A stretch of DNA of 64,000 bases, from positions 9,256,157 to 9,320,156 of the forward strand of contig JARUPZ010000023.1 in the NCBI GenBank assembly GCA_031213475.1. The letters are read 5' to 3'. Position numbers and translations under genes: made by a program. This DNA is from Nereocystis luetkeana. Taxonomy: Eukaryota; Sar; Phaeophyceae; Laminariales; Laminariaceae. Under the pieces are notes generated by a model, which had not been told where the DNA came from, did not search any database, and saw only the letters and a program-made list of their open reading frames with translations. This document shows, in pieces, positions 1,614-62,357 of the stretch (position 1 is the stretch's first letter; each line of letters starts with the position of its first letter).

Positions 1614-1616
1614 ACA
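1594..1616 (+). repeat. CA dinucleotide microsatellite
   Basis: An uninterrupted (AC)n run ends exactly at the start of the first macrosatellite unit (ACATCGTAGAG from 1614). Confidence 0.9.
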
Positions 1617-2918
1617 TCGTAGAGATTGGTCTGTACGGTGCTGGGCGGGCGACTCTTTTCAATCTTGATCCAGCGAATCAAGACAGCGTTCGCTATAGCT
1701 CTGCCCACCAGCAGCCACGCCATGCTGGCGCTGCCGCTGGGCTGACCGTTGCGTGCCCTGGTGCCACCCCGCACTCCGCCGGCGCCTGGCTTTTGGTATC
1801 CGTTTTGATCACAGAGGGGTGCCGGTGTCCGTGTGCTCTGTCTTTTTTCGCGCGGCTTTGCTTTTCTTCCAACTGGGGAGTTCTCTTGTTGTCACTCGAG
1901 TCGAGAACGCCGGATCGAGGCATGTGAACACTGAAGGTGGTACAATAGGTACAAGGTAGCGGTCTCAATGCCCCGCCCGTCGATCGTCGCGAACCCATAT
2001 GGCGCGAAGTCGGGGCTCTCCCTTTCTTTCGAAAATAAAGCGACCCGCCTGCCTCAGAGAGAGACCCTCCGTACAGCAAGCAGTGCTATCAATACCACTC
2101 GCACTGTAGTACAGAAGTACACAAACTAAAAAATGAACATCGCTCGCACTTGCTGCCTGCGGGAACCCGATTTTTCCGCCCACTGAAAAGAAAGGTATTC
2201 TACGTAGCGAAGGGGTGAGGTCTGGCTGTGCTGATTGATGCCGCTGCTGCCATGCTCGCCACACAGCCTCTCCCCATCCCCTCGCCTGCTGGAATCGACC
2301 ACTCTGGCCCTCACCGCGTTTGGGACCGACCGTCGTTGCGCTATGATAAACTGGTATCTGGTACCTGGTACAGTATATGATACAGCAGTGGTAGTGGTAG
2401 CGTACGAAAGAAGTACAAGTACATGTCACTTTGCCGTCCACAAAAAGGTCGGATATTTCGCACCAAGGCGTTTCACAAAAACGACCTACTCGTACAGCAA
2501 CTCTGTTTCCAAGTACTCTAGGTCCGAAATATAAAGAACGTTTGTGTATTTATATTCAAAACATACATTCCTTATATTTTGGGAGATAGTGGGATATATT
2601 AGTGATACTGACACTCGATTCCAGGCGACGACAACCTTGCGTGCATTAACTCACATGTTTCTACCCCCATCTCTTCTCCCCTACCTCTCCATCCCCACCT
2701 CCGTCGGTTGCAAACCAGGTACGAGAGCAGACCCCGTCATCCCGATGCGGCACCTCTTCAAGCGCGAACTATCCGCGTTGTCGCCGGGTAAGGCCGGATG
2801 CGTTGTACCCGAATGAAGGACGCCACCGATCCCGCCGGGAAAACAACGTGAGCCCTCTCAATATGTCCGCCGAACCTTGTACACAAGTAGAAACATCCGT
2901 GCGCCGCACGCTTGAGCT

Positions 2919-2937
2919 ATATATACCAGGTATATAT
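2919..2937. repeat. AT palindrome ATATATACC-a-GGTATATAT
   Basis: A perfect 9-bp inverted repeat with a one-base spacer, followed by further TATA steps. It is kept in all copies: 20221-20239, 32007-32025 and 48716-48734. The following TATATGTATATATG run is altered in R4. It could form a cruciform or be a nucleosome-poor site; no function is shown. Confidence 0.8.
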
Positions 2938-3300
2938 GTATATATGTATACTGGCGCTATTCATCGCGACCTACCTTATTCTCGCGTAGAAAAATACATG
3001 TATACACGAAACTGCGAAGTCAACGCTTCGACCGTCGTAGAGGGCGCAAAGTGTGTGCAATGCTCACAGACTCACGGTCACCAGCCCGCGCGCATCTTGC
3101 TGTCCGTCTTGTTCCGTGCCCGCACACCATGATACAGGCGAGACGGGTCATGTGACGAAGACGAGGGCAGGTGGTGATCGGGAAGCTGTATCGTGGCACG
3201 GCCGAGGCGAAGACAGCTCAACCGCGCCGACGTTGTTGTTGTTATATTGTTAGTTCCGGTCGTATCTGTTGTTGGCGTCTACTTTGTGATTGCTTTTGAG

Positions 3301-6300
3301 TGTGACAAGGTTGTCAGTGGGAGTCGGAGTATAGAAGTGGAGTACCGGTGTTACTCGCGATGGGCGTTTGGATGTTTCCGCCGGTAGCGACGCCACGGAG
3401 TTCTTCCTGCCGTACAGAGCGTTTCTGTCGTTTGGACTTGCACATGAGAATGACCTCTGGTGGGAGGCAGGCCTCTTCAAACAGGCTGTAAGTGCGAACA
3501 CAAGTTTCTAGGTCGCTCGTTTTCGTGGCGACCAGTGTTGTGCGTTCGGTTCTCTGGCGCGGTGTATCCCGCGGGTGCTCTCCATGTCATAGACAGCTAC
3601 GTTGATGCGGCAGGAATCGAGGGTGGCTCCCCCCCCTCGGCTCTGATCCTTGGTCTGGGTAACTCAGCCTCTCGCGTTAACTCGCGAGGAAAACAATAAT
3701 GGCGTCGGGCAATCACGCGGTCCGTCGGGGTTAGTGTTATTGAACACAACACTAAAATTTGTAGCGTTCACGGAGGTTTCCGTTAATCGGCGACGTTTCT
3801 TCGTGAATGCTGCATTGAAGGTACACTATCTACTTTTGTAAGTCGGTTGTCGGTGATGTCTTTGTTGATGTTTAGTTCGGGGTCGCTGTGCATGTGACAA
3901 GGTCGTCAGTGGGAGTCGGGGTATAGAAGTGGAGTACCGGTGTTACTCGCGATGGGCGTTTGAATGTTTCCGCCGGTAGCGACGCCACGGAGTTCTTCCT
4001 GCCGTACAGAGCGTTTCTGTCGTTTGGACTTGCACATGAGAATGACCTCTGGTGGGAGGCAGGCCTCTTCAAACAGGCTGTAAGTGCGAACACAAGTTTC
4101 TGACACTAGGTCGCTCGTTTTCATGGCGACCAGTGTTGTGCGTTCGGTTCTCTGGCGCGGTGTATCCCGCGGGTGCTCTCCATGTCATAGACAGCTACGT
4201 TGATGCGGCAGGAATCGAGGGTGGCTCTCCCCCCTCGGCTCTGATCCTTGGTCTGGGTAACTCAGCCTCTCGCGTTAACTCGCGAGGAAAACAATAATGG
4301 CGTCGGGCAATCACGCGGTCCGTTGGGGTTAGTGTTATTGAACACAACACTAAAATTTGTAGCGTTCACGGAGGTTTCCGTTAATCGGCGACGTTTCTTC
4401 GTGAATGCTGCATTGAAGGTACGCTATCTACGTTTGTAAGTCGGTTGTCGGTGATGTTTTTGTTGATGTTTAGTTCGGGGTCGCTGTGCATGTGACAAGG
4501 TTGTCAGTGGGAGTCGGGGTATAGAAGTGGAGTACCGGTGTTACTCGCGATGGGCGTTTGGATGTTTCCGCCGGTAGCGACGCCACGGAGTTCTTCCTGC
4601 CGTACAGAGCGTTTCTGTCGTTTGGACTTGCACATGAGAATGACCTCTGGTGGGAGGCAGGCCTCTTCAAACAGGCTGTAAGTGCGAACACAAGTTTCTG
4701 ACACTAGGTCGCTCGTTTTCGTGGCGACCAGTGTTGTGCGTTCGGTTCTCTGGCGCGGTGTATCCCGCGGGTGCTCTCCATGTCATAGACAGCTACGTTG
4801 ATGCGGCAGGAATCGAGGGTGGCTCTCCCCCCTCGGCTCTGATCCTTGGTCTGGGTAACTCAGCCTCTCGCGTTAACTCGCGAGGAAAACAATAATGGCG
4901 TCGGGCAATCACGCGGTCCGTTGGGGTTAGTGTTATTGAACACAACACTAAAATTTGTAGCGTTCACGGAGGTTTCCGTTAATCGGCGACGTTTCTTCGT
5001 GAATGCTGCATTGAAGGTACGCTATCTACGTTTGTAAGTCGGTTGTCGGTGATGTTTTTGTTGATGTTTAGTTCGGGGTCGCTGTGCATGTGACAAGGTT
5101 GTCAGTGGGAGTCGGGGTATAGAAGTGGAGTACCGGTGTTACTCGCGATGGGCGTTTGGATGTTTCCGCCGGTAGCGACGCCACGGAGTTCTTCCTGCCG
5201 TACAGAGCGTTTCTGTCGTTTGGACTTGCACATGAGAATGACCTCTGGTGGGAGGCAGGCCTCTTCAAACAGGCTGTAAGTGCGAACACAAGTTTCTGAC
5301 ACTAGGTCGCTCGTTTTCGTGGCGACCAGTGTTGTGCGTTCGGTTCTCTGGCGCGGTGTATCCCGCGGGTGCTCTCCATGTCATAGACAGCTACGTTGAT
5401 GCGGCAGGAATCGAGGGTGGCTCTCCCCCCTCGGCTCTGATCCTTGGTCTGGGTAACTCAGCCTCTCGCGTTAACTCGCGAGGAAAACAATAATGGCGTC
5501 GGGCAATCACGCGGCCCGTCGGGGTAAGTGTCATTGAACACAACACTAAAATTTGTAGCGTTCACGGAGGTTTCCGTTAATCGGCGACGTTTCTTCGTGA
5601 ATGCTGCATTGAAGGTACGCTATCTACTTTTGTAAGTCGGTTGTCGGTGATGTTTTTGTTGATGTTTAGTTCGGGGTCGCTGTGCATGTGACAAGGTTGT
5701 CAGTGGGAGTCGGGGTAAAGAAGTGGAGTACCGGTGTTACTCGCGATGGGCGTTTGGATGTTTCCGCCGGTAGCGACGCCACGGAGTTCTTCCTGCCGTA
5801 CAGAGCGTTTCTGTCGTTTGGACTAGCACATGAGAATGACCTCTGGTGGGAGGCAGGCCTCTTCAAACAGGCTGTAAGTGCGAACACAAGTTTCTAGGTC
5901 GCTCGTTTTCATGGCGACCAGTGTTGTGCGTTCGGTTCTCTGGCGCGGTGTATCCCGCGGGTGCTCGCCATGTCATAGACAGCTACGTTGATGCGGCAGG
6001 AATCGAGGGTTGCTGCCCCCCCTCGGCTCTGATCCTTGGTCTGGGTAACTCAGCCTCTCGCGTTAACTCGCGAGGAAAACAATAATGGCGTCGGGCAATC
6101 ACGCGGTCCGTCGGGGTAAGTGTCATTGAACACAACACTAAAATTTGTAGCGTTCACGGAGGTTTCCGTTAATCGGCGACGTTTCTTCGTGAATGCTGCA
6201 TTGAAGGTACACTATCTACTTTTGTAAGTCGGTTGTCGGTGATGTTTTTGTTGATGTTTAGTTCGGGGTTGCTGTGCATGTGACAAGGTCGTCAGTGGGA

Positions 6301-6836
6301 GTCGGGGTATAGAAGTGGAGTACCGGTGTTACTTGCGATGGGCGTTTGGATGTTTCCGCCGGTAGCGACGCCACGGAGTTCTTCCTGCCGTACAGAGCGT
6401 TTCTGTCGTTTGGACTTGCACATGAGAATGACCTCTGGTGGGAGGCAGGCCTCTTCAAACAGGCTGTAAGTGCGAACACAAGTTTCTAGGTCGCTCGTTT
6501 TCGTGGCGACCAGTGTTGTGCGTTCGGTTCTCTGGCGCGGTGTATCCCGCGGGTGCTCTCCATGTCATAGACAGCTACGTTGATGCGGCAGGAATCGAGG
6601 GTGGCTCCCCCCCCTCGGCTCTGATCCTTGGTCTGGGTAACTCAGCCTCTCGCGTTAACTCGCGAGGAAAACAATAATGGCGTCGGGCAATCACGCGGTC
6701 CGTCGGGGTAAGTGCTATTGAACACAACACTAAAATTTGTAGCGTTCACGGAGGTTTCCGTTAATCGGCGACGTTTCTTCGTGAATGCTGCATTGAAGGT
6801 ACGCTATCTACTTTTGTAAGTCGGTTGTCGATGATG
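3301..6836 (+). repeat. Nested 592/598-bp satellite array in R1, six copies
   Basis: Copies begin (motif TGTGACAAGG) at 3301, 3893, 4491, 5089, 5687 and 6279; the last is cut at 6836. Two length classes differ by a 6-bp TGACAC insertion, present in copies 2-4. Each copy contains a short open stretch with residues FFLPYRAFLSFG and GLAHENDLWWEAGLFKQ, ending at a GTAAGT donor-like site. A second open stretch follows (VIDSYVDAAGIEGGSPPSA). An in-frame TAG interrupts the first stretch in every copy but the fifth, so these are probably not functional exons. Two small hairpins recur: GGTCGC/GCGACC and CTCGCG/CGCGAG. Confidence 0.95.
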
Positions 6837-8164
6837 AAAACGTCACCGCTCGTTTAGCACGGCCAAATGGATGTCTCTTAGGTGGGTGGACGAGATTCTC
6901 TAGGAGTGTTGTCTACATGCTGAGATTGTAAAAGTAGAAACGGAGTTTTGATGAGAGATACGGACGGAATTAGCTATTGATAATACCAACGTGCAACAAC
7001 AACATGGGAAGATTTGTGACGATTTGCAAGTATGTTGCAGGTTGTCTTTCACGACTTGCGTCTGATAGTCCGTCAAGGACATAGATCCAAGCGCCATTCT
7101 TCTCCGCTGGACACCGTGAACTCGGGCCTGTTTCACGCGCCCGCGTTTCAGCATCCCCAGAGGGCTACGTATGCTGTGCCCTCGCCATGTTCCGCGTTTC
7201 CACGACGGCGCCTCTTACTAATAGCAGGCCACCGTGATGTGTGACCTGTCTTCTGTGGACTCCGTTTTCGCACAATGATCCATTTTGCTTTCCCGCTCGA
7301 CCGGGACGACCTCTCTATCCTTTCCCTACCTGCCCTTCCGCCGTTGAAAACCTAATGGGCACGGCTCGACCATCCCCTTGACAAAATGAGTAGCAACCAC
7401 TCAATCGGCCGAACTCACAGCTGACGTACTCGTGGTAATTTAATCAAATATTCTCGACGTCATTACGGCCGCCGACACTCTCGGACAGTCGGCCTTTGAC
7501 CTTACCCACGTGTATTCCACGGACCGATACGTTGCGTCGTGTTGGCAGCCACCCCGTTCAATGTTTTTTGGCAGTGGTTTTCGTCGATATTTTGGTTCGC
7601 CAGTGATCAATGCTTCGTATTCCTGCACGGGGGAGTGTACACATGGTCACCAATAAGGCTTGAGTTCTGTAAGGACCACTCCGAGCTGGAGCGCATTATG
7701 AGCTCGTCAGATCCGCTGTCGCACAATCTAATATACCTGGTGCCAACAGGTCGTAGCGAACGTGGTTTGGATTACGCTGTTAGTAGGTGGGAGCGCGAAC
7801 GGGAAACGCTGTAAGCTCTCGCTGCCACTTTAGCTAGTTGCACACATAATCCGATAATGAAACAGCACCTGTTGAACTGTGACCCTTGGCGTTTGGCTGA
7901 AGCCAGCCTTTCGAACCTCGAGCCATGTTGCCCGTAGGGCGGGTAGGGTACCAACCATTTCTCAATTAATACATAGCTACACACCTCACCCAAAAACTCG
8001 ATTCTGGAACAAAATGTACCTCCCTCCTTCAAGTGTTGCGTTTCACGGCGGGGAGCTTGGTTCGACAACACCTACCGCCAGCCACCAGCTGGCCACACAC
8101 AAACACAGATCACTCAACTCACGGTCACCAGTACTCGTGTGGACGGCGCAGACGCCGTGCATGA
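6837..8164. other. Stretch without a supported feature between the satellite and the proline-rich frame
   Basis: Short open frames occur on both strands, the most protein-like at 7539-7814 on the plus strand. R4 breaks that frame with a one-base deletion near 7776 and otherwise changes amino acids. About eleven differences from R4 are visible between 7000 and 8050. I see no repeat or RNA gene here. Equivalent stretches are 23541-24868, 35327-36654 and 51447-52773. Confidence 0.6.
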
Positions 8165-8590
8165 AAGCGTATCTCACGGGTAAGGTCGATCGATCAGCAG
8201 CGGCACCAGCATCACCACCGCCGCCACCGCCACCACCTCCACCAACCACCACCTCAATATCCCCCCACAGCAACCCGCAACACAGCGCAAGCACAGCCAT
8301 CAGAACAGCCATCAGCTGGCACCGCAACAGTGCTTGGGACAGGGGCGGGAAGGAATAAGAAGACGTCGCCTGCCTATGTGGCAGTACTTCTCGGAGTTGA
8401 GTCGCCGGTCATGAAGAAAAGCGTCAAGTGCGCGGTAGTCACAGAGTTACGTGCCTCGGGACGACTCCTTGCGCGCAACCAGCAGTGCAGGGAACTCTTC
8501 GCGTACAACCGCGCCGACCCTGCGGCGAGAAATAAAAGCTCCGGGACAAGCAGTCAGCTGTGCCATCTGAACGAGTATTACACCCCCTAG
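8165..8590 (+). CDS. Possible exon with His/Pro/Gln-rich start and soluble C-terminal half, unknown
   Basis: Open for 141 codons from after a TGA at 8162 to TAG at 8588-8590. The first third is His/Arg-rich, created by a CCACCG-type triplet run. It is followed by a Pro/Gln linker (QPPPQYPPTATRNTAQAQP). The C-terminal half reads like a folded segment: SPAYVAVLLGVESPVMKKSV, then LRASGRLLARNQQCRELF, then a short acidic end with NEYYTP. No ATG precedes it in frame, so it would have to be spliced or start at GTG/ATG codons inside. Copies are at 24869-25294, 36655-37080 and 52774-53199. R4 differs by one silent and two replacement changes. No family was recognised. Confidence 0.22.
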   Translation, partial: KRISRVRSIDQQRHQHHHRRHRHHLHQPPPQYPPTATRNTAQAQPSEQPSAGTATVLGTGAGRNKKTSPAYVAVLLGVESPVMKKSVKCAVVTELRASGRLLARNQQCRELFAYNRADPAARNKSSGTSSQLCHLNEYYTP

Positions 8591-8677
8591 TACAAGGTGG
8601 CGATCAAGGCCAGCCGTCTATCGACATCCACCAGGAAGAAGCGTTCCCTCCCGTGCCGTCGTCGAGTTTTTCTTCTA

Positions 8678-9021
8678 CCATCCCGACCCGTCGTGACAAA
8701 ACTCACATTGCGCTTTACCGTCCCGTCTCGTCACCAAAACCTGTGCGTACCGTCCCGTCCCGCCGTGAATGTATAATCATAATGATTCACCGTCCCTTTC
8801 CACCGAGGGAAAAAATAGTTACTGTCCCGTCTCGTTCCGTCGTGAAATGGCCTATTGAGTTGAGTTTTACCGTCCCGTCCCGTCCCGTCGATAAATTGTG
8901 CATCCGCTGTCCTGTCCCGTCCCGCCCCGCCAATGTTTCATGTCTCCATTTTACCGTCCCGTTTTCATTTTTCTTTCCTGTCCAACAAGTCAAAACTGTC
9001 CCGTCCCGTCCCGTCACGGTT
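8678..9021 (+). repeat. Dispersed CCGTC pentamer tracts
   Basis: About nine short tracts of CCGTCCCGTC type, one to three pentamers long, recur every 30-45 bp. They are often preceded by TTTA or ACTG. The minus strand therefore carries spaced GGG runs. Copies are at 25382-25725, 37168-37511 and 53287-53630. The repeat makes a VPSRPV-like peptide in one frame, which is a by-product of the repeat rather than evidence of coding. Confidence 0.85.
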
Positions 9022-9149
9022 CTCAGCCAATGTGACATGCCTGGCTATTATTGAACTCGGGAAAGGCGGATATAATGTTGGCCTTAGCCAGCGGAGTTCG
9101 GGGACGAGGAAGACTCAGTGTATGCAGATGGAGCAGCGATATGTGGGCA

Positions 9150-9620
9150 AGATCCAAACGGACAAAGACGGCGTATATCACTATTGTTTGTTGTATAAGA
9201 TCTGCCGCTGCAATAGCCTCTAGGTAGAGCTAGAGGACACTACTGGCTCTATACGTCTGATAGTTTCTCTTTTCAGCTCGCCTGTCTAGAAAACTGAGCA
9301 CGTCTCGCTGGGAAACTTGTGTAGATGTTTCAACAACAACAGTGTATTCAGCGATCTCATTCAACCTCGGTATACACAAAGTCTTCGAAAGCACCGCCTG
9401 AAACATTCTAGTACACCTCGGGCAGATCATGATCTACGGTATAGATCATCCGCTATAGTTCCTCACCTGCCGTTGTGAGAGGTTGTGCAGGATCTGCATA
9501 TATAATACAGATCCAACCCATCAGGGAGTATGTGTTAGAATCATGCAGACTACGTGGGTCCCACCAGGAAACACGATGAGCGGTAGATCATACAAGACCA
9601 TGAACAGATCCATCTGGGTT
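9150..9620. other. Hairpin cluster rich in AGATC motifs
   Basis: Three perfect stem sequences lie within 300 bp: CCTCTAG/CTAGAGG at about 9217-9236, ATGATCTA/TAGATCAT at 9429-9449 and GGATCTG/CAGATCC at about 9490-9514. AGATC or GATCT occurs at least eight times in the interval. It could be a structured RNA or a protein-binding region; neither is shown. Copies are at 25854-26324, 37640-38110 and about 53759-54229. Confidence 0.5.
9277..9401 (+). CDS. Possible short terminal exon after a strong splice acceptor
   Basis: A pyrimidine tract ending TTCTCTTTTCAG at 9276 is a good acceptor. The following 125 bases are open in one frame to TGA at 9399-9401, about 40 residues, including LSTSRWETCVDVSTTTVYSA and FNLGIHKVFESTA. 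R4 (53886-54010) differs by a single silent change in a valine codon. Other copies are at 25981-26105 and 37767-37891. It overlaps the hairpin cluster, so the open frame could be chance. Function unknown. Confidence 0.2.
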
Positions 9621-9692
9621 GAAATATCTAGATGAGGTGGGAATTGATAATCTGTCAGAGGTGTTAAAACATGCGATAGACAGACGTACCTA

Positions 9693-9874
9693 TGTTAAGT
9701 GTGAAGCAGTAGGCACTGACTGCTGCTAGCAGGTGTGCCTTTGACTCTGCTCTGGTCACTCATATAAGGAGCCTGACGATGTCAAAAGTTATAGGCTCTT
9801 GTATTAGTTGCTGCTTGCCCAGTCAGATGTCTTCTGAACGAAGGAGCGACACATTCATCAGAAAGGCAGGCGAT
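9693..9874 (+). repeat. Diverged internal direct repeat, left copy
   Basis: Begins TGTTAAGTGTGAAGCAG and ends GGCAGGCGATA. It shares the blocks TATAGGCTCTT, AGTTGCTGCTTGCC, TTCTGAACGAAGG and CATTCATCAG with 10506-10696. The two copies are clearly older than the macrosatellite, since both occur in every unit (26397-26578, 38183-38364, about 54302-54484). Confidence 0.8.
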
Positions 9875-10275
9875 AACGCCTGCTAGGTGGGATGAGGGGA
9901 CGCTTGATCTAAATCATAATTCCGCAACAGGAGAAAGGGGATAGCATAGCACCAGCCCACCCTGAAGGGTCGCATATGCAGATTCATAGAAAATCAGGCA
10001 GGAACCAAACCCACCAGGGGAACTCGGAGAATGGGTTGAAGATGCGGCGCTTCACCACCCACTCCCACACCTCTAACTCGTAAGGCTGAAGACAATTACA
10101 CGTGTACACCGCGAGGCAGCGAAGAGTGATCCAGCCCACGATGCTGCCGTGAGGCGTGCTTATGCCAACATCAACGCCCACAAAATCGAACGTGTCACAC
10201 CTATGCTGTTTCACGCTGCTCTCGACAAAACCAACGCAGCACACCAGTTAACACGTAGTGTCAAACTCCCGGTAG

Positions 10276-10533
10276 CAGACATACTACAATGTAGTACAAT
10301 GTGACGACACATGCTGCGACGGTCTAGACTTCGAGCCTGGGGTTCTCGGTTGGGAACTCCCGCTTCGCAAATGCGTTCAGAGAGCCATCACACCCGATAA
10401 AACCTCGTTCGTGTTGGTGCCGTTGTCCGCTGCTTGGGCGGAGAACGAGTGCTGGCGGGGGTCCTTGCCCAGTTTGAGTGATTTCGGCCCTACCGACGAC
10501 ACCAGTGTTAAGTGTAAGGCAGCATGGATCTAG
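10276..10533 (+). CDS. Possible Cys-containing exon, unknown
   Basis: Open from after TAG at 10273 to TAG at 10531-10533, 85 codons. It reads as a small Cys-rich segment (CDDTCCDGLDFEPGVLGWEL), then KTSFVLVPLSAAWAE and a C-terminal KCKAAWI. Its last 28 bases overlap the right copy of the internal direct repeat. In R4 a 4-bp duplication lies near the left end, and an ATG-initiated frame of 82 codons runs 54898-55146. R4 shows two replacement and no silent changes. Other copies are at 26980-27237 and 38766-39023. It lies upstream of the stalk and membrane-segment frame on the same strand and could supply a luminal domain if spliced to it; that is inference. Confidence 0.2.
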   Translation, partial: QTYYNVVQCDDTCCDGLDFEPGVLGWELPLRKCVQRAITPDKTSFVLVPLSAAWAENECWRGSLPSLSDFGPTDDTSVKCKAAWI

Positions 10534-10696
10534 GGACCGACTACTTCAAGCAGATGTGCCTCTGGCTCTGCTTTGGTCACTTACCAAAAGTGTTTGACAA
10601 TGTTAGAAGCTATAGGCTCTTATACTAGTTGCTGCTTGCCTCGCCAGATGTATTCTGAACGAAGGGGCGAGGCATTCATCAGTAAGGCAGGCGATA
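10506..10696 (+). repeat. Diverged internal direct repeat, right copy
   Basis: Partner of 9693-9874, displaced by about 813 bp in the same orientation. The ends TGTTAAGTGT and GGCAGGCGATA are conserved. Copies are at 27210-27400, 38996-39186 and 55119-55309. The arrangement is long-terminal-repeat-like in geometry, but the ends are not TG...CA and nothing between the copies resembles a retroelement gene. Confidence 0.8.
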
Positions 10697-11378
10697 CATT
10701 TCGGTCTACTTGATTTTAATGTGTTTGATTTGTATGTTTCTATCCCATTCATTATATTCGCTCATTTTTATCTCTCTCTTTCCTAGTAGTCGTAACGCAG
10801 GTCCGGGGTCAGAGTAAATGTATGTAAATACTTTCAACGCGATTTATCGTACGAGTGAGGTCGTCTGTTTTCTTTGTGTGTGTATATGTCGACCTTGAAG
10901 TTGTACCTACGTCTACTGGAAGGGGGAGACTAACGGCCACCATTTTCTTCCAAATTGCGGTGTGTTTTATTTTCCTTTTGATGTTGAACTGCTGGGAAAA
11001 CCTTTTGGGTTTGTGGCTGATATGCTGGTATTGATGTAAACTGATACTCTGGGACAGACAGCACGGAACTCGTCTACAACCAAAGAATACCACCGCCGCA
11101 AAGAGATGGGCACCTTGATCAACGTCAGGAAGCAATAAATTACATATCATCAGGAAGTGAAATAGGACTCATAGACTGGCAACTCTATCACACTAGTGTT
11201 TCCGTCACCGTCATTGCCACTACGGCAGCTTGGCTTATATACGCACACAGCCCGAGACAAAAGTAACACTTGTACGGGAAGAACGGTCCACGCCTTAATA
11301 CAACAGCGGTAGTCGTGCCTAAAACAGCAGTAGCAAAGCCTGGATCGACAAAACAAAATAGGGGTACGATATACATAG

Positions 11379-11972
11379 GATATAATATGTATATATGTAC
11401 ATGATTATGTTGTAGCTGCTGCGAGGGAGAAGCATCTACACAGGCGAGAGGAATCCTCCACCCAAGAAGGCTCTGCACGCCCCCGATGCTCTCCCGTCGC
11501 CCCCCGCCCCCCGTCCTATCGTTGCCACTGCCGATATCAACACGGTATCCCCGCAAGCACCACCTCGACAACCACCAACACAACCACGGACACAACCACC
11601 AACACCACCACCAACGCCACCACCACCATCACCAACACCACCAATACCGTTGACATCACCACCACTACCACTACTACGACCGCAACCACCACTACCACCA
11701 CTATCATCATCGACAGAAAGAGGTTTGCTATCGATAACGTTGCCGAGCCGGTCGACACCGGGGCATGGCAGGTGGTCATGATGATTGTGTCGGTCGCGAC
11801 CCTCCTGCCGGTAGAACTCTTCGTCGTGCTCCTGCTGCTCTTTCCGGTCCTGTTCTTCTGTCGTCCCGTTCTGCGTTGGGCTTACATCTCCGTAGAGCCC
11901 GGGCATCAACGACTTTATCTGGAGATGCTGAAAGAAATCCCACGGGTGCATAACTTTCGATTGTGGGTTTAG
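11379..11972 (+). CDS. Possible membrane glycoprotein segment: Thr-rich stalk, membrane helix, short tail (R1)
   Basis: Open from after TAG at 11376 to TAG at 11970-11972, up to 197 residues. From about residue 61 to 108 the sequence is almost all threonine with some Asn and Ile, a mucin-like stalk coded by repeated ACC/ACT/ACA. A charged linker follows (IIIDRKRFAIDNVAEPVDTG). Residues 132-161 are strongly hydrophobic, centred on ATLLPVELFVVLLLLFPVLF. A basic-flanked tail of about 36 residues follows, containing WAYISVEPGHQRLYLEMLKE. The order stalk, membrane segment, tail fits the C-terminal end of a type I surface protein. An upstream exon would be needed for a signal peptide; the codons before residue 60 look non-coding. 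The ACC repeat makes Gly- and Val-rich shadows on the other strand. No family was recognised. Confidence 0.35.
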   Translation, partial: DIICIYVHDYVVAAAREKHLHRREESSTQEGSARPRCSPVAPRPPSYRCHCRYQHGIPASTTSTTTNTTTDTTTNTTTNATTTITNTTNTVDITTTTTTTTATTTTTTIIIDRKRFAIDNVAEPVDTGAWQVVMMIVSVATLLPVELFVVLLLLFPVLFFCRPVLRWAYISVEPGHQRLYLEMLKEIPRVHNFRLWV

Positions 11973-12059
11973 CTATCGTAGTGAGTTTGCAGAATCTGCG
12001 CGGATTGGCCGAGACCTGCAGTTATTTATTTACTTGACATCAAATACCTCTGAAAATGT

Positions 12060-13700: not shown

Positions 13701-13881
13701 ATGTGAGGATTGACCTAGAGCTCTCGCTGGCTCTCTCTGACGGGTTTGGTCAGGAAACGGAATAAAACGCCCTGTCGTGCCCGACGGCGCTTTACAATAA
13801 TTTACGGTAGGTACACAATGTAGCTGGGTGTGTATGCTTGCTTGCTTGTCCGCGTGGTAGAATGTTGCCGTCACCCGCTTG

Positions 13882-14038
13882 TCATACACTGGTACCATAT
13901 AGAGCTACCAACAACTCGCTTAGGTTTAGTCTCACGTGCTGCAGTTTGGCCATGTTGATGAGCTCGTACGCCTCCACCAGCAGCCGCTCCAAACTGCCGC
14001 ACCGCGCCTTCGCCCTCTGTCCCTCTCGCCACTGACGC
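13882..14038 (-). CDS. Possible exon on the minus strand, helical segment, unknown
   Basis: On the minus strand an acceptor-like CTGGACCGCAG ends at 14039. The next 157 bases are open to TGA at 13884-13882. The peptide contains RQWREGQRAKARCGSLERLL, VEAYELINMAKLQHVRLNL and ends in SELLVALYGTSV. The hydrophobic spacing suggests an amphipathic helix. In R4 (58523-58652) the segment is unchanged up to SEL, where TTG becomes TAG. R4 also has one extra base just upstream, which joins this frame to a 111-codon frame. R3 copy: 42372-42528. R2 lost the region. Function unknown. Confidence 0.22.
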
Positions 14039-14376
14039 CTGCGGTCCAGCAGAATCGTACGAAACGAGGTTTCTTGGTGTTAGCGCAGTTCGTTTCGTTC
14101 CTACGCAGGTGAAAACACGGCTTTTGGGGTGGGTTCATGCAGCATCCTGGACTGCCGACCCCGAACACATCTACAGCAATACATCGGCGCTCGCATGTAG
14201 AATACAGACTTTGAGAAATCCAGTCTAGAACAAAGCTCAACAAATCGAGAAAATACGCAGTCGATGTATGCGTTCGACGTCTATATATGAGAAATAGTAA
14301 GGAATGTACCTATCCCCCCCCGCCCCCCATGCTCGCTCGGGAAAAATAAGGATCTTAGCCTAACATCTGATTTCAG

Positions 14377-14629
14377 GTTTCCTATACACGAGAAGGCCGA
14401 ATACTGCATACCACTTTACGTGAACACGTACAAAACGATCGGGCTCGTGGAAGAAACATTCGCTTACAGCGGCAGCAGTCAAGGGGGAAGCGCAGGGATT
14501 GATCGCCGTAAGCCATGTGGCATCCGGCAACACGTGGCAGCCGCTGCTAGAAATCTGGGGAAGAAATTGCAGAGCCACGACGAGGCTGGGAGGCAGAATC
14601 TCCGGCCGATTAGAGAGAGAACGGTATAG
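14377..14629 (+). CDS. Possible exon after a TTTCAG acceptor, unknown
   Basis: TAACATCTGATTTCAG at 14361-14376 combines a branch-like TAAC and a good acceptor. The following frame is open for 83 codons to TAG at 14627-14629. It begins FPIHEKAEYCIPLYVNTYKT, continues GLVEETFAYSGSSQGG, and later has a Lys/Arg-rich part. A GCC/GTAAGC donor-like site near 14507 could end the exon after GIDR. R4 (58992-59244) shows one silent and two replacement changes. R3 copy: 42867-43119. Deleted in R2. Confidence 0.22.
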
Positions 14630-18403: not shown

Positions 18404-18488
18404 CGGTGTAGGCCCTCCACAAGTACTATAGTGCGGCGATGCACGACGACGCGGGTTCGGTGAACATGTTCTGGTCACAGGTCAATGA

Positions 18489-47203: not shown

Positions 47204-47246
47204 CGCTCCCGGCGCGCCGACCCCCCTGGGTCGGCGCGCCGGAGCG
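47204..47246. repeat. GGCGCGCC inverted repeat, R3 copy
   Basis: Identical to the R1 hairpin. R4 ends before this point. Confidence 0.9.
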
Positions 47247-51446: not shown

Positions 51447-54400
51447 AAAACGTCACCGCTCGTTTAGCACGGCCAAATGGATGTCTCTTAGGTGGGTGGA
51501 CGAGATTCTCTAGGAGTGTTGTCTACATGCTGAGATTGTAAAAGTAGAAACGGAGTTTTGATGAGAGATACGGACGGAATTAGCTATTGATAATACCAAC
51601 GTGCAACAACAACATGGGAAGATTTGTGACGATTTGCAAGTATGTTGCAGGTTGTCTTTCACGACTTGCGTCTGATCGTCCGTCAAGGACATAGATCCAA
51701 GCGCCATTCTTCTCCGCTGGACACCGTGAAGTCGGGCCTGTTTCACGCGCCCGCGTTTCAGCATCCCCAGAGGGCTACGTATGCTGTGCCCTCGCCATGT
51801 TCCGCGTTTCCACGACGGCGCCTCTTACTAATAGCAGGCCACCGTGATGTGTGACCTGTCTTCTGTGGACTCCGTTTTCGCACAATGATCCATTTTGCTT
51901 TCCCGCTCGACCGGGACGACCTCTCTATCCTTTCCCTACCTGCCCTTCCGCCGTTGAAAACCTAATGGGCACGGCTCGACCATCCCCTTGACAAAATGAG
52001 TAGCAACCACTCAATCGGCCGAACTCACAGCTGACGTACTCGTGGTAATTTAATCAGATATTCTCGACGTCATTACCGCCGCCGACACTCTCGGACAGTC
52101 GGCCTTTGACCTTACCCACGTGTATTCCACGGACCGATACGTTGCGTCGTGTTGGCAGCCACCCCGTTCAAGGTTTTTTGGCAGTGGTTTTCGTCGATAT
52201 TTTGGTTCGCCAGTGATCAATGCTTCGTATTCCTGCACGGGGGAGTGTACACATGGTCACCAAAAAGGCTTGAGTTCTGTAAGGACCACTCCGAGCTGGA
52301 GCGCATTATGAGCTCGTCAGATCCGCTGTCGCACAATCTAATATACCTGGTGCCAACAGGTCGTAGCGAACGTGGTTTGGATTACGTGTTAGTAGGTGGG
52401 AGCGCGAACGGGAAACGCTGTAAGCTCTCGCTGCCACTTTAGCTAATTGCACACATAATCCGATAATGAAACAGCACCTGTTGAACAGTGACCCTTGGCG
52501 TTTGGCTGAAGCCAGCCTTTCGAACCTCGAGCCATGTTGCCCGTAGGGCGGGTAGGGTACCAACCATTTCTCAATTAATACATAGCTACACACCTCACCC
52601 AAAACCTCGATTCTGGAACAAAGTGTACCTCCCTCCTTCAAGTGTTGCGTTTCACGGCGGGGAGCTTGGTTCGACAACACCTACCGCCAGCCACCAGCTG
52701 GCCACACACAAACACAGATCACTCAACTCACGGTCACCAGTACTCGTGTGGACGGCGCAGACGCCGTGCATGAAAGCGTATCTCACGGGTAAGGTCGATC
52801 GATCAGCAGCGGCACCAGCATCACCACCGCCGCCACCGCCACCACCTCCACCAACCACCACCTCAATATCCCCCCACAGCAACCCGCAACACAGCGCAAG
52901 CACAACCATCAGAACAGCCATCAGCTGGCACCGCAACAGTGCTTGGGACAGGGGCGGGAAGGAATAAGAAGACGTCGCCTGCCTATGTGGCAGTACTTCT
53001 CGGAGTTGAGTCGCCGGTCATGAAGAAAAGCGTCAAGTGCGCGGTAGTCACAGAGTTACGTGCCTCGGGACGACTCCTTGCGCGCAACCAGCAGTGCAGG
53101 GAACTCTTCACGTACAACCGCGCCGACCCTGCGGCGAGAAATGAAAGCTCCGGGACAAGCAGTCAGCTGTGCCATCTGAACGAGTATTACACCCCCTAGT
53201 ACAAGGTGGCGATCAAGGCCAGCCGTCTATCGACATCCACCAGGAAGAAGCGTTCCCTCCCGTGCCGTCGTCGAGTTTTTCTTCTACCATCCCGACCCGT
53301 CGTGACAAAACTCACATTGCGCTTTACCGTCCCGTCTCGTCACCAAAACCTGTGCGTACCGTCCCGTCCCGCCGTGAATGTATAATCATAATGATTCACC
53401 GTCCCTTTCCACCGAGGGAAACAATAGTTACTATCCCGTCTCGTTCCGTCGTGAAATGGCCTATTGAGTTGAGTTTTACCGTCCCGTCCCGTCCCGTCGA
53501 TAAATTGTGCATCCGCTGTCCTGTCCCGTCCCGCCCCGCCAATGTTTCATGTCTCCATTTTACCGTCCCGTTTTCATTTTTCTTTCCTGTCCAACAAGTC
53601 AAAACTGTCCCGTCCCGTCCCGTCACGGTTCTCAGCCAATGTGACATGCCTGGCTATTATTGAACTCGGGAAAGGCGGATATAATGTTGGCCTTAGCCAG
53701 CGGAGTTCGGGGACGAGGAAGACTCAGTGTATGCAGATGGAGCAGCGATATGTGGGCAAGATCCAAACGGACAAAGACGGCGTATATCACTATTTTTTGT
53801 TGTATAAGATCTGCCGCTGCAATAGCCTCTAGGTAGAGCTAGAGGACACTACTGGCTCTATACGTCTGATAGTTTCTCTTTTCAGCTCGCCTGTCTAGAA
53901 AACTGAGCACGTCTCGCTGGGAAACTTGTGTAGATGTTTCAACAACAACAGTATATTCAGCGATCTCATTCAACCTCGGTATACACAAAGTCTTCGAAAG
54001 CACCGCCTGAAACATTCTAGTACACCTCGGGCAGATCATGATCTACGGTATAGATCATCCGCTATAGTTCCTCACCTGCCGTTGTGAGAGGTTGTGCAGG
54101 ATCTGCATATATAATACAGATCCAACCCATCAGGGAGTATGTGTTAGAATCATGCAGACTACGTGGGTCCCACCAGGAAACACGATGAGCGGTAGATCAT
54201 ACAAGACCATGAACAGATCCATCTGGGTTGAAATATCTAGATGAGGTGGGAATTGATAATCTGTCAGAGGTGTTAAAACATGCGATAGACAGACGTACCT
54301 ATGTTAAGTGTGAAGCAGTAGGCACTGACTGCTGCTAGCAGGTGTGCCTTTGACTCTGCTCTGGTCACTCATATAAGGAGCCTGACGATGTCAAAAGTTA

Positions 54401-55991
54401 TAGGCTCTTGTATTAGTTGCTGCTTGCCCAGTCAGATGTCTTCTGAACGAAGGAGCGACACATTCATCAGAAAGGCAGGCGATAACGCCTGCTAGATGGG
54501 ATGAGGGGACGCTTGATCTAAATCATAACTCCGCAACAGGAGAAAGGGGATACCATAGCACCAGCCCACCCTGAAGGGTCGCATATGCAGATTCATAGAA
54601 AATCAGGCAGGAACCCAATCCACCAGGAGAACTCGGAGAATGGGTCGAAGATGCGGCGCTTCACCACCCACTCCCACACCTCTAACTCGTAAGGCTGAAG
54701 ACAATTACACGTGTACACCGCGAGGCAGCGAAGAGTGATCCAGCCCACGACGCTGCCGTGAGGCGTGCTTATGCCAACATCAACGCCCACAAAATCGAAC
54801 GTGTCACACCTATGCTGTTTCACACAGCTCTCGACAAAACCAACGCAGCACACCAGTTAACACGTAGTGTCAAACTCCCGGTAGCAGACATACTACAATG
54901 TATGTAGTACAATGTGACGACAAATGCTGCGACGGTCTAGACTTCGAGCCTGGGGTTCTCGGTTGGGAACTCCCGCTTCGCAAATGCGTTCAGAGAGCCA
55001 TCACACCCGATAAAACCTCGTTCGTGTTGGTGCCGTTGTCCGCTGCTTGGGCGGAGAACGAGCGCTGGCGGGGGTCCTTGCCCAGTTTGAGTGATTTCGG
55101 CCCTACCGACGACACCAGTGTTAAGTGTAAGGCAGCATGGATCTAGGGACCGACTACTTCATGCAGATGTGCCTCTGGCTCTGCTTTGGTCACTTACCAA
55201 AAGTGTTTGACAATGTTAGAAGCTATAGGCTCTTGTACTAGTTGCTGCTTGCCTCGCCAGATGTATTCTAAACGAAGGGGCGAGGCATTCATCAGTAAGG
55301 CAGGCGATACATTTCGGTCTACTTGATTTTAATGTGTTTGATTTGTATGTTTCTATCCCATTCATTATAATCGCTCATTTTTATCTCTCTCTTTCCTAGT
55401 AGTCGTAACGCAGGTCCGGGGTCAGAGTAAATGTATGTAAATACTTTCAACGCGATTTATCGTACGAGTGAGGTTGTCTGTTTTCTTTGTGTGTGTATAT
55501 GTCGACCTTGAAGTTGTACCTACGTCTACTGGAAGGGGGAGACTAACGGCCACCATTTTCTTCCAAATTGCGGTGTGTTTTATTTTCCTTTTGATGTTGA
55601 ACTGCTGGGAAAACCTTTTGGGTTTGTGGCTGATACGCTGGTACTGCTGTAAACTGATACTCTGGGACAGACAGCACGGAACTCGTTTACAACCAAAGAA
55701 TACCACCGCCGCAAAGAGATGGGCACCTTGATCAACGTCAGGAAGCAATAAATTACGTATCATCAGGAAGTGAAATAGGACTCATAGACTGGCAACTCTA
55801 TCACACTAGTGTTTCCGTCACCGTCATTGCCACTACGGCAGCTTGGCTTATATACGCACACAGCCCGAGACAAAAGTAACACTTGTACGGGAAGAACGGT
55901 CCACGCCTTAATACAACAGCGGTAGTCGTGCCTAAAACAGCAGTAGCAAAGCCTGGATCGACAAAACAAAATAGGGGTACGATATACATAG

Positions 55992-56585
55992 GATATAATA
56001 TGTATATATGTACATGATTATGTTGTAGCTGCTGCGAGGGAGAAGCATCTACACAGGCGAGAGGAATCCTCCACCCAAGAAGGCTCTGCACGCCCCCGAT
56101 GCTCTCCCGTCGCCCCCCGCCCCCCGTCCTATCGTTGCCACTGCCGATATCAACACGGTATCCCCGCAAGCACCACCTCGACAACCACCAACACAACCAC
56201 GGACACAACCACCAACACCACCACCAACGCCACCACCACCATCACCAACACCACCAATACCGTTGACATCACCACCACTACCACTACTACGACCGCAACC
56301 ACCACTACCACCACTATCATCATCGACAGAAAGAGGTTTGCTATCGATAACGTTGCCGAGCCGGTCGACACCGGGGCATGGCAGGTGGTCATGATGATTG
56401 TGTCGGTCGCGACCCTCCTGCCGGTAGAACTCTTCGTCGTGCTCCTGCTGCTCTTTCCGGTCCTGTTCTTCTGTCGTCCCGTTCTGCGTTGGGCTTACAT
56501 CTCCGTAGAGCCCGGGCATCAACGACTTTATCTGGAGATGCTGAAAGAAATCCCACGGGTGCATAACTTTCGATTGTGGGTTTAG
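55992..56585 (+). CDS. Possible membrane glycoprotein segment, R4 copy
   Basis: Identical to the R1 frame, although R4 is otherwise diverged. The identity covers the equivalent of R1 11145-12085. Conservation by selection or a local gene-conversion tract would both explain this. Confidence 0.38.
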   Translation, partial: DIICIYVHDYVVAAAREKHLHRREESSTQEGSARPRCSPVAPRPPSYRCHCRYQHGIPASTTSTTTNTTTDTTTNTTTNATTTITNTTNTVDITTTTTTTTATTTTTTIIIDRKRFAIDNVAEPVDTGAWQVVMMIVSVATLLPVELFVVLLLLFPVLFFCRPVLRWAYISVEPGHQRLYLEMLKEIPRVHNFRLWV

Positions 56586-59500
56586 CTATCGTAGTGAGTT
56601 TGCAGAATCTGCGCGGATTGGCCGAGACCTGCAGTTATTTATTTACTTGACATCAAATACCTCTGAAAATGTGTGCTTGAGGCAGGGCGAGGGGGGGGTT
56701 CTGATTGACCACGCATGCATTTCGAGACGGAGCACCGCGGGGAGGGGGCGGGGGGGGGGACGGGCTCATCGCCATCGTTGGACACTAGCGGGAGAGAAGA
56801 TTGGTCGGCCACTAAAGTGCGTCGACAGCATAATACATCCAATTGTTAGTAATTGTTGAGCGCGCGCGGGGGGGGAGGGGGGGGGGAGTACTAGTCCCTA
56901 AACACCAAGGATGCACAAAAGTCATGCTGCCTGGTGGTCGAGGTATCGTGTACCACTCTGTCCCAAACCAAAAGGCAAACTATAAGGACAGTTATTAATT
57001 GATCAAAATGTTCCTTGTAATATCGAACAGATTGATACTTTGCAGGGAAGATCACTCGGAATCTCGTCATTCTACTGTTAGTAATAGCCTGCAAGACGAA
57101 ACATACACCCCTGGAATGTACCCTAAATATGTTGACGTTCGATCGAGTAGTGCGGCGGTGATGACTGCGTCGGCCAAAGAGTGGATATAACCCAGACGGT
57201 GACCACAACCGCGAGGAAGAGGGGGGAAATACAGATCAACCGTACGCCCCCCTCCCCGGGGGGGGGGGTGTCCTCGATATTATGCATGGCTGGAGTCGTA
57301 TGACCATGGACCCTCGCATCCCTGCAATGCTGGGGGGTGGGGGGGTACTCGATATCATGCATGGCCATAGTCGTATGACCATAGACCCTCGCATCCGTAC
57401 AATGCCGCGACGGAGAAAATCGGGTTTTCACCGACCAAGCAGACACTGCTTGCACAGGAGGCTTCATTGGGGAGGAGAGGGGGGTGTACGCATGTCGTGC
57501 ACATGGACGTAGTCGTATTACTATAGACTTTCGCATCCCTATAATGCCGGAACCGAGCACTTCGAAGTTTTTTACCCACCAGGCAGATCTAGAGGGGGGT
57601 GTACTCATGTCATGCACATGGCCGTAGTCGTATGAATATAGACCATTGGTTCCCTTCAACGTCGAGACGGAGCACGTCGGTTTTCACCAACCAGACAGAT
57701 ATTGCTTGCACCAAGCGCGAAGCGGAACGTGAGGTGCTGGCCGAGTCGCATGAAGGAGTGAAGTGCATCCTACTTACAACCGCTTGTGAATCGGAAATTA
57801 CAACGGATGACAGCTTCGACCGAATGGGGAGGGGGAGGAGGAAAGGGCGGGGGGAGGGAGGGGGGGGTGTACTCATTATCATGCATGGCCGTATCGTATG
57901 ATCATGGACCCTCGCATCCCTACAATGCTGGGACGGGGCACGTTAGCTTTTCACCGACCAGGCAGACATTGCTTGCACCAAGCGCGAAGCGCCGTGAGGT
58001 GTTGGGCGAGCCGCATGAAGGGCGAGCCGCGCCGTACTGAGAACAGCTTTTGAGGCGGATTATTTTGCACATGGATGATAGGGTTAATGAACTAACTTAT
58101 GGTCTGGTGTGGCCACTTCCTGAGACAGCGATGGGTTTACGGGGGGATGGAATCAATACCATGCATAGCCGTAGTCGTATGGCCATAGACCGGGGGGGAT
58201 GGGGGTCATTAGGGGGAGGGGAGGGCCAGTAGGGGGGTGTAGTCCTATGACTGGACGGGGGGTAGTTCTGGGTGGGGGGGGTCGGCTGAGGAGGAGTCGC
58301 CATCGATTGATGTGAGGATTGACCTAAAGCTCTCGCTGGCTCTCTCTGACGGGTTTGGTCTGGAAACGGAATAAAACGCCCTGTCGTGCCCGACGGCGCT
58401 TTACAATAATTTACGGTAGTTCCGGTACAAAATGTAGCTGGGTGTGTATGCTTACTTGCTTGTCCGCGTGGTAGAATGTTGCCGTCACCCGCTTGTCATA
58501 CACTGGTACCATATAGAGCTACCTACAACTCGCTTAGGTTTAGTCTCACGTGCTGCAGTTTGGCCATGTTGATGAGCTCGTACGCCTCCACCAGCAGCCG
58601 CTCCAAACTGCCGCACCGCGCCTTCGCCCTCTGTCCCTCTCGCCACTGACGCCTGCGGTTCCAGCAGAATCGTACGAAACGAGGTTTTTTGGTGTTAGCG
58701 CAGTTCGTTTCGTTCCTACGCAGGTGAAAACACGGCTTTTGGGGTGGGTTCATGCAGCATCCTGGACTGCCGACCCCGAACACATCTACAGCAATACATC
58801 GGCGCTCGCATGTAGAATACAGACTTTGAGAAATCCAGTCTAGAACAAAGCTCAACAAATCGAGAAAATACCCAGTCGATGTATGTGTTCGACGTCTATA
58901 TATGAGAAATAGTAAGGAATGTACCTATCCCCCCCCGCCCCCCATGCTCGCTCGGGAAAAATAAGGATCTTAGCCTAACATCTGATTTCAGGTTTCCTAT
59001 ACACGAGAAGGCCGAATACTGCATACCACTCTACGTGAACACGTACAAAACGATCTGGCTCGTGGAAGAAACATTCGCTTACAGCGGCAGCAGTCAAGGG
59101 GGAAACGCAGGGATTGATCGCCGTAAGCCATGTGGCATCCGGCAACACGTGGCAGCCGCTGCTAGAAATCTGGGGAAGAAATTGCAGAGCCACGACGAGG
59201 CTGGGAGGCAGAATCTCCGGCCGATTAGAGAGAGAACGGTATAGCCCCGCCGCAGCAAGACACGGAACAAGGGCAGAAAAGCACCACCCCAGCTCCAAAT
59301 ACGATCTTCAGCATCAACCTCAACAGAAACTCCAACATCAAGTTCACCATCACACTTAACATTAAGTTCAACATCAAGTTCAACAACATGTTCAACATCA
59401 GTTCTAGCAGCAGCTCCTGTTTCAAAACGCTATCGCGGCTGAGAACACGACGAATGCTGAAGATCCTGTTGAGAGACTGGCACCACAACCACTGGCTGCT

Positions 59501-62357
59501 CTACGTGTACAATGTACTGTGAGCGACCATAAAGCACAGAGAGAATGCGAGCTTCATGCAAAACGCAAGCCCTAACAAGACGCACAACTAGACGAGAAGG
59601 CTTCGTGGGATCGACTGATAGAAACATACACAAATGTTCACCGTACCAGTACCAGAGGATAAACGGAAGAGGATTATATGTTATATGAAGTTGTTGCTGA
59701 CTGCTGACTGCATTAGGACTGGCATCAAACTGCAACAAGCCAACGCCAGCGCATTTGGTGATATCCCTTCAAGCAACAGCTTCCTCACTACAGGACGTCC
59801 TTCTGGTTTTCAACACTCTAATAATAGCAGCAAAGGCGCGGAGACATGCGACATCGCCGCTTACCGCACACCCCGAACCAGCCTGTCCTAACCCTTGCAC
59901 TGACCCCATACGCCCCTCACCTCCAGCCTCCGCAAGTCCAGAAGCCCCATCCAAGACGCCTCGGAGTAGCTCACGGGTGCGCTCGGCAGGCAGCACCGCC
60001 TCGCCGCGACGAGGCTCGGTAGCGTCTGCCAAACCTCAATACACCGCTGCCGCTGCCGCTGCTGTGCGTCGGCTTTCGGCATTCGGTTCCCTCCCAGACC
60101 ACGCCCATTTGACGACGCGTCCCCCTCCAGCCATTGCAGCAGCTGCACCGGCGCGTACGAAACGTGCATCGTCGTGCCCGTCCGCCGGCGCGCCTCCTCC
60201 AGGCCTCCGGTCCCGTCGCGGCCCGTCCTTTCGAGGGCCTCTCAGAACCGTTACATGGCGCCCGCGGAGGCCGAAGACGTGTTGGCGTAGGTGTACACCG
60301 GGGTGCACGGCCTGCCGTCCCCGTCGACACCAATGAGGTTTATTCCGAAGCACGCGATGGCGACGGCAACCACGGCGTGCGAAATATCTCGCAAGCGCAG
60401 CTCGCTTCAGAACGGGAGCGGCGCGGCGAGGCGGCAAGGCGGCAAGAAGGGGGGCGCGTGAGCGTGGTCGCATAGGCGTGTTCATCGTGCGTGATGTTTT
60501 GGGAAGAGGCAGGTAGGAGTGTGGTAGATCGGTGAGGAGATGTCTGGCCAGCGCTTGTTCGTCGCACTAATGTGACTCGTCTGGAGTCGAAAAACAACCG
60601 CACCGAGACATAAAAAACGTTCCATGGTCCAGGTGCCTGCGTGGATTGCTTGGTACCCGTCCTGTTTTCTGGGGGAGCCGACAGGCCACCATAGCTGTTT
60701 CCAGCTGCGGGCATCGCGCGCGTTTCTGCGGGAGCCAGCGGAGTGAGCGGTATCTCTTGTGGATGCTTCAAGGCTGAAGCCATCGAGAAACGCCGGCATC
60801 GGGCAGCTCTTCACAACTGTCAGCACAATTACAGCATGCAGCCAAGGTGGTTCGAGTGTTTTAACAGCATGTACGTCTCGGGTTGGACGTTGGGCGCGAT
60901 CCCTAGACCCCCAGGTGATTTTCGTCTGTTCTATTGCTACAAAATATGAACTAAGACCTACGCCAATGGGAAAGCGAAGTATCAATATTTTTTTTGAATT
61001 TCAAAGATACCCTCCAGAATTTTTTAAAACACGCTTCCTATGGGCACGGTGAGAAAAAAAAAAGTTCCAAACTTTTGGGAAAGCCCGAAAAAAGCAAATC
61101 TGGGGCCGATGTTGGGGCCAACATCAGCTTGAGAAAAACTCAGGCCGATCTTTGGTTCGAAGCGGCGAAATTCCGAGTCCATGACAGACATCGATCGGCA
61201 AAACCAAAGACTGCGTCATGAATTCTGAACGGGGTGCGCTCGTTAGGGGCTCCGACCCACCCTAGGGTCACCGTCTTCACACCATGGCCGGTGTCGTGTG
61301 GCGGGGGCTGACGAGGCGTATGATAAACAAACAATTGGCCGCTGGTGTGCACCAAACAGAAGACAAAACTTCTCCATCCGTCTCAAATGGCAAAAAATAG
61401 ACTTTTGTTCAGGTTTGGGAGGATACCGTAGGACGCCGCCGCTCTCGCCCCCTAGACCATGGACCCACCCGATATCTTCGAGGCCGTCATCTATATTCGT
61501 TGGCCTTGTTGCCGGACACCGAGTGGGTTGCCCGTGGGCTGCGTCTATGTTGAGATCGAGCGTCGATCGCCGCACGAGCTGGTTTTTACCAGCGTGTTGA
61601 CAATTTGCAAGCAGAAAAAACAAATTGCGCCGCCTGCAGCCGTTGGAGGAAGAAAAAAAGAAAAAAAAAAAAAATCAAAACTTTTTTTCGCTTTTTTCCC
61701 ACAGCGGCGGTGCGAGGAAATTTTCGGTTGTTCTTTGAAGGCAATATGTTTGAAAAAAAACTTTTAAACTTCGCGTTTCCATTGGCATAGGTCTAACCCC
61801 GGAGATGGCAAACTGAGACATGGAGAACTTGCAGGGACTTTAAACTTTCAGGCCCTTTCGACCCAATCTGAAGGCTGCGATCATATAGTGCGCGTACGTT
61901 AAGAACAGTGTGGCAAACAGCAGCAGAAGATCCATACCCAGACACCACAGCAGGTACATCAATGATAACAGTGTTAGTGTTCGAAAGAGTCCACAACTGA
62001 ACTTAACCAACAGCAGCAGTGTACAGCACCCCCCCCCCCCATTGCCTACCCCAAGATTAACGCGGCAGCGGAGAATGCTGCTGTTTTCTCAAGTAGCTGG
62101 GCTACAGCAGTGGGCGCACGGTCAAATTGGTGTCCATGCTTTTATGTCTTGTTTTTTTTTCAACCTTGATCTATTAATAGAGTAATTTATAATTTTAGTA
62201 TAGGGTTTATACTGTAGTTGGTCCCACCGCTGTTGAGCTTCTCTTTTTTTTTCAACCCAATGTTTTTGTTGTTCGTCCCGATCTGAGCCTATTTTTCTCG
62301 ACATAATGTTTCTTACCTGCGGGTGCCCAGTACTGATGTACACATGAATACAAGGGT

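Follow-up and report, generated by a model that had tools for sequence, protein, structure and literature searches.

How a segment of about 16.7 kb that carries no recognisable gene comes to be repeated head to tail, and whether the repetition belongs to the genome or to its assembly, are the questions raised by a locus of Nereocystis luetkeana on the chromosome-scale contig C23. The 64,000-nucleotide stretch of DNA analysed here (the window; C23:9256157-9320156) contains the four head-to-tail units described in an initial annotation (Table 1); the last of these stops 3 bp before the end of 62357 given there. That the repetition is not due to chance is clear from exact repeats of up to 11,978 bp in the window, as compared to the 14-17 bp reached in all five first-order Markov shuffles. 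In a MAFFT alignment of the units (default method, gap placement approximate inside subrepeats, with the subrepeats recounted using anchors), U1 and U2 are 99.915% identical, U1 and U3 99.874%, and U2 and U3 99.875%, with U4 at 98.97-99.06% identity to each of these three.

Table 1. Features of the locus in window coordinates (negative positions and positions above 64000 lie outside the window)
Feature	Position	Strand	Remarks
uA	-63891..-47181		left of window
uB	-47180..-31649		left of window
Spacer 1	-31648..503		about 32 kb; between uB and U1
Palindrome, spacer 1	-14371..440		14.8 kb, 99.5% self-complementary; outer end is window 1..440
Final 68 bp of unit tail	436..503	+	array goes on left of the annotated start
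1,110-bp insertion	504..1613	+	ends in (AC)n; ACATC on either side; its 3' side is the left edge at 1614
Unit U1	1614..18922	+	17,309 bp
Subrepeats in U1	3300..6875	+	6 copies of 592/598 bp
Array join in U1	14415..14417		unit position about 12803
Unit U2	18923..30706	+	11,784 bp; lacks the equivalent of U1 12962-17880
Subrepeats in U2	20602..23579	+	5 copies
U2 deletion junction	29664..29665		4.9 kb gone; about 1 bp shared; removes the array's own join in U2
Unit U3	30707..47412	+	16,706 bp; full-length reference copy
Subrepeats in U3	32388..35365	+	5 copies
Dispersed repeat, about 1 kb	36553..37525		copies elsewhere in the genome at about 70-80% identity
Dispersed repeat, about 290 bp	41707..42021		mostly 82-86% on many contigs; 75-86% in the flanks
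Array join in U3	42905..42907		meets at 42906/42907
Unit U4	47413..62354	+	14,942 bp; about 1.0% from U1-U3; tail broken by the insertion starting at 62355
Subrepeats in U4	49100..51485	+	4 copies
Array join in U4	59031..59033		
8.6-kb insertion	62355..70947	+	62355..64000 in window; in U4 tail; same insertion in uB
Spacer 2	62355..100886		about 38.5 kb; between U4 and uC
Palindrome, spacer 2	86250..100891		counterpart of the spacer 1 palindrome; 99.6% self-complementary
uC	100950..114354		right of window

The picture of a single unit of about 17 kb filling sixty kb is accurate in that the arrangement is tandem with several kb per unit, but the units are not uniform, ranging from 11.8 to 17.3 kb across U1-U4: U2 is missing 4.9 kb, U4 is interrupted, and each unit contains four to six nested copies of a sequence of about 598 bp. 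As the annotation had stated, the copies differ by defined indels, seen in the U2 deletion and in subrepeat counts of 6/5/5/4, and by substitutions, of which 23 distinguish U1, U2 and U3. Twenty of these are at sites present in all three units, within 1619-5030, and the three others separate U1 from U3 at 17549-17648, where U2 is deleted.

Examination of the 200 kb around the window reveals that these units are part of a larger structure extending past both edges of the annotated interval (1614 and 62354). The array occupies C23:9186741-9370510, or -69415 to about 114354 in window coordinates, a span of about 184 kb in which seven monomer-equivalents of about 16.7 kb are arranged in eight blocks of one orientation, with a partial copy at the left end. 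A count of four copies is thus correct for the part visible in the window but not for the array as a whole. When three stretches of the unit (about 7 of its 16.7 kb) were searched against the genome (1987 contigs totalling 465 Mb), as had been proposed, full-length matches among the best candidates scored were limited to C23 (7, 7 and 5 for the three stretches) and a redundant small contig, C1165 (1, 1 and 0).

The array is itself organized at a higher level. Colinear pieces longer than 1 kb in the two spacers are 99.06-99.94% identical, with smaller gaps present, and uB together with the start of spacer 1 matches U4 and the start of spacer 2 at 99.85% over 22.7 kb. This match, along with the likeness of the spacers, indicates that a block of about 94-101 kb has been duplicated, pairing uB, spacer 1 and U1 with U4, spacer 2 and uC.

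Where the units were originally joined is a separate issue from where they are most conveniently divided. The “precise tail/head junctions” reported at 18923, 30707 and 47413 do not mark the joins left by duplication, because a paralogue on another contig, C20, has both sides of this point adjacent to each other. That paralogue runs from unit position 16473 through the unit head to 5688 at 76-84% identity, rising to about 90% in the subrepeats, with about 40 bp around the tail/head point aligning poorly. The left edge of the array instead corresponds to unit position 12804 and its right edge to 12802, placing the join at about 12803. The same phase is evident in the genome search, in which, among the best 40 of 8753 candidates, five matches were full length, one started at query position 1458 and one stopped at 1456. 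It is in this phase that the count of seven monomer-equivalents is made, with one join having been lost with the U2 deletion. No terminal inverted repeats were seen, nor, by eye, a target duplication at the array edges; apart from one pair of 45 bp, the inverted matches within the unit are short hairpins, and all of them lie away from its ends. Since the edge sequences meet without a visible repeat or duplicated target, the join looks like a non-homologous tandem duplication.

The paralogue on C20 (C20:8597643-8606714), which corresponds to only part of the unit, has its own array of ten subrepeats of about 594 bp; TRF, with a longest period of 500, listed nothing for the piece fetched from there. 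Relatives of the subrepeat occur on other contigs as well, at 64-92% identity in matches over 100 bp. Within the array, the subrepeats of U1-U3 match position by position with 0-3 differences, indicating that the subrepeat array is older than the duplications that gave rise to these three units. The extra subrepeat of U1 is intermediate between its neighbours, with three and five differences from them, the neighbours themselves being eight apart. In U4, a close match (three differences) is found in the last copy only, pointing to separate turnover of its subrepeat array.

Divergence among the copies is likewise unevenly distributed along the unit. In the unit head, the seven copies differ pairwise at 6-27 of about 1680 sites (0.4-1.6%). 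In the first core region, U1, U2 and U3 are identical (0/6111) and their heads differ at 6-11 of about 1680 sites; uA and U4 differ at only 1 of 6110 sites in this core but at 27 of 1680 in the head. In the first core, again, uB shows 6-7 differences from uA and U4, uC shows 46-68 from the other six copies, and uA, uB, U4 and uC are each 0.7-0.8% from U1-U3. In the second core, U4 and uB differ at 4 of 4783 sites. Divergence is highest in the outer partial copies, with differences at 103-112 of about 1789 sites on the left and 70-73 of about 1450 on the right. A mosaic of this kind, in which the cores are alike, the heads have diverged and the edges have decayed, is the pattern expected from exchange and conversion between copies and suggests that both have acted here.

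Another type of variation involves insertions within the units and spacers. The 1,110-bp insertion preceding U1 has empty sites at window 100950 and in the heads of U2, U3 and U4. Another copy of it, 99.3% identical and in inverted orientation, is found about 95 kb upstream and overlaps the end of an adjoining reverse-transcriptase ORF (L009:5489-7705, minus strand, 739 aa, RVT_1 domain, E 9e-36), from which the insertion would be the 3' end of a 5'-truncated LINE. The 8.6-kb insertion is bounded by an imperfect 8-bp target-like duplication (AATACAAG / AATA-AAG); it carries internal direct repeats of 286 bp (99.65%) and 247 bp (97.6%). Spacer 1 includes an ORF (L017:3547-4425, plus strand) with the PIF/Harbinger transposase domain DDE_Tnp_4 (E 4.5e-30), and a near-identical counterpart of this ORF is found in spacer 2. 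A domain was detected in one of seven further ORFs tested from the spacers and the left flank, the reverse transcriptase. Spacer 2 alone has a 6.8-kb insertion with inverted ends of about 213 bp (87%), at 71732-78509 in window coordinates.

Taken together, these features probably identify the locus as a non-coding macrosatellite (megasatellite) that began with one tandem duplication and was expanded by unequal exchange and conversion. A single stretch, already containing the older satellite of about 598 bp and old dispersed repeats, would have been duplicated in tandem through a non-homologous join. Thereafter, gene conversion and unequal exchange among the copies may have altered the numbers of monomers and nested subrepeats while homogenising parts of the array; mobile elements, including the 8.6-kb element, the PIF/Harbinger-bearing stretch and the LINE, would have entered, as would the 14.8-kb palindrome; and duplication of one block with its spacer would have produced the higher-order repeat of about 94-101 kb. 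Exchange as the mechanism is read from the pattern of the copies in one assembly, and its continuation to the present would be conjectural. Seven copies is a low number for a macrosatellite, and the label “tandem segmental duplication cluster” fits equally well.

A complicating issue for any such reconstruction is that some of the copies could be products of assembly, with alleles or overlapping reads strung together among U1-U3 so that their true number is lower. The identity of these three units across 6,111 bp of the first core, the 11,978-bp exact repeat and the existence of the unplaced contig C1165 are what would be expected in that case; the first 10,000 of the 23,254 bp of this contig match window 701-10701 at 99.98%, from which it follows that redundant contigs exist in the assembly, C1165 itself likely being a haplotig or an unresolved copy. 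Against this, the 4.9-kb deletion is private to U2, the subrepeat counts differ, the 23 substitutions all fall in the head/subrepeat part or near the tail, the 1.1-kb insertion is confined to U1 with uninterrupted sites elsewhere, and uA, uB, U4 and uC differ from U1-U3 by 0.7-0.8% in the first core. Inflation of the U1-U3 copy number is therefore unlikely. The assertion that this is “not a simple assembly duplication” draws support from the indels, the private insertion with its empty sites and the range of divergence, and is probable rather than certain, given a stretch of about 12 kb over which U1 and U3 are indistinguishable.

Two further explanations concern what the unit might be rather than how many copies of it exist. 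In one, judged quite improbable, it would be an amplified gene, either for a protein with repeated exons or for a long non-coding RNA, kept multicopy for dosage. The conservation of the subrepeat at other loci is compatible with this, as is a minus-strand subrepeat frame (window 33592-33867 and equivalents) whose pN/pS of 0.60 is the lowest of 18 frame-by-region values and which has no stops in the reference copy and five in 624 compared codons; a three-base rhythm is also seen in the substitutions among subrepeat relatives (14 alignments). However, all 14 of these alignments include 1- or 2-bp gaps, stops interrupt the frame in one U3 subrepeat, in the copy designated C32a and in three C6 copies, and none of six pieces of the head and subrepeat has a Pfam family at the cut-off (best E 0.011). 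The frame is possibly of decayed coding origin, a decayed exon; on either strand, the case for a coding exon in the subrepeat is weak. In the other explanation, the unit would be a giant non-autonomous transposon inserted in tandem, for which its large size, the absence of a domain and the dispersed partial relatives on other contigs could be cited. Giant KDZ, EnSpm and Sola-1 elements reported in Ectocarpus mostly exceed 10 kb and reach about 30 kb (PMC12477816). No transposase family attained the Pfam cut-off in six frames of U3; non-autonomous elements have none, and a domain split over short exons could be missed. Against this explanation are the confinement of inverted matches to hairpins and one short internal pair, the edges without a duplicated target, the restriction of matches for window 42022-44700 to this array among the best 40 of 8753 candidates, and the continuity of the C20 paralogue across unit positions 16473 to 5688 only. 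All four make the transposon explanation very improbable.

The wider search for coding and RNA content bears out the view that the unit has “no recognisable gene”, with no Pfam or Rfam family at threshold. Six-frame translations of U3, in which stops were written as X, had no Pfam match at the cut-off (lowest E-value 0.015), in a search that could miss exons shorter than a domain, and the lowest E-value in the two flanks of the window was 0.05. At 211 codons, the longest open frame falls within the range of shuffles (mean 199, 95% point 248); the fifth and tenth longest, 176 and 157, exceed the shuffle means of 143 and 125, the fifth being also above its 95% point of 164. At two stretches classed by TRF as simple repeats, three-base periodicity reaches up to 16 (shuffle maximum 3.5), and at 43667-43757 and 45647-45737 it is slightly above that maximum, at 3.8-4.5. 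Most likely the array has no coding role. An origin as a ribosomal spacer, or as some other repeated RNA gene, was rejected, there being no Rfam match in the whole window at the gathering score nor in 30707-36400 at E values up to 1. A bacterial, plasmid or phage origin was rejected on finding no near match for U3 in phage or plasmid collections; a 27-base subrepeat pattern, a weak test in being exact, had no matches in viral_contigs or genome_contigs.

The spacer palindromes add a further dimension. Among the substitution sites of the four arms, 31 pair the arms within one palindrome against the other, and three pair the same arm across palindromes; 42 more are found in a single arm. Spacer 2 has 20 of these in its left arm, 17 of them at the inner end of that arm. 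The likeness of arms within a palindrome may reflect either conversion between arms or a separate origin of each palindrome. Ampliconic palindromes of mammalian sex chromosomes have arms that are more alike within one palindrome than between palindromes, and the same is true here; unlike those palindromes, the arm ORFs of this locus show no Pfam match (0 of 3 tested). A tentative and rather unlikely proposal from this comparison is that the locus would be an ampliconic block that maintains itself, consisting of tandem 16.7-kb monomers and of two 14.8-kb palindromes whose arms would be kept alike by arm-to-arm gene conversion. This would be an architecture of mammalian sex chromosomes in an unrelated eukaryote, and the block might be linked to sex or have little normal recombination for another reason. 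In any event, arm-to-arm conversion could be tested in this genome with the help of palindromes whose arms match.

Under the favored interpretation as a non-coding macrosatellite, the locus is a well-resolved case of a very long non-coding unit turning into an array, in which a single assembly records the phase of the array, its non-homologous join, incomplete homogenisation, decay of the edges and second-order duplication. Any role for the array as a functional element, such as one in chromatin or recombination, would be conjectural. The array seems to be a commonplace instance, albeit a large one in a good state of preservation, of DNA that repeats itself through unequal exchange.

Comparison with human arrays places the locus among known structures while also marking its departures from them. 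Macrosatellites are described as consisting of tandem units of several kb in variable number, specific to one or two chromosomes (PMC3018141). The array shares the tandem several-kb units in one orientation and, for the best candidates of the three searched stretches, the restriction of full-length matches to C23 and C1165, with partial paralogues elsewhere. As in the human D4Z4, DXZ4, RS447, TAF11-like, SST1, PRR20 and ZAV arrays (PMC3018141), tandem kb-scale units with high identity within the array are found on one or two chromosomes; unlike them, the array here has a longer unit, fewer copies and interruptions. Human megasatellites are described as showing repeating transposable-element patterns and higher-order repeats arising from unequal crossing over (PMC2588610). 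A repeating transposable-element pattern and a higher-order duplication are both found here, the unequal exchange itself being deduced. Relative to those megasatellites, whose described units measure from a few kb up to 12 kb, this locus differs in its unit of about 16.7 kb, its seven monomers, its nested satellite of about 598 bp and its large spacer palindromes; it resembles them in having kb-scale units with fixed interspersed elements, no genes and higher-order repeats, and their missing monomers are ascribed to unequal crossing over (PMC2588610).
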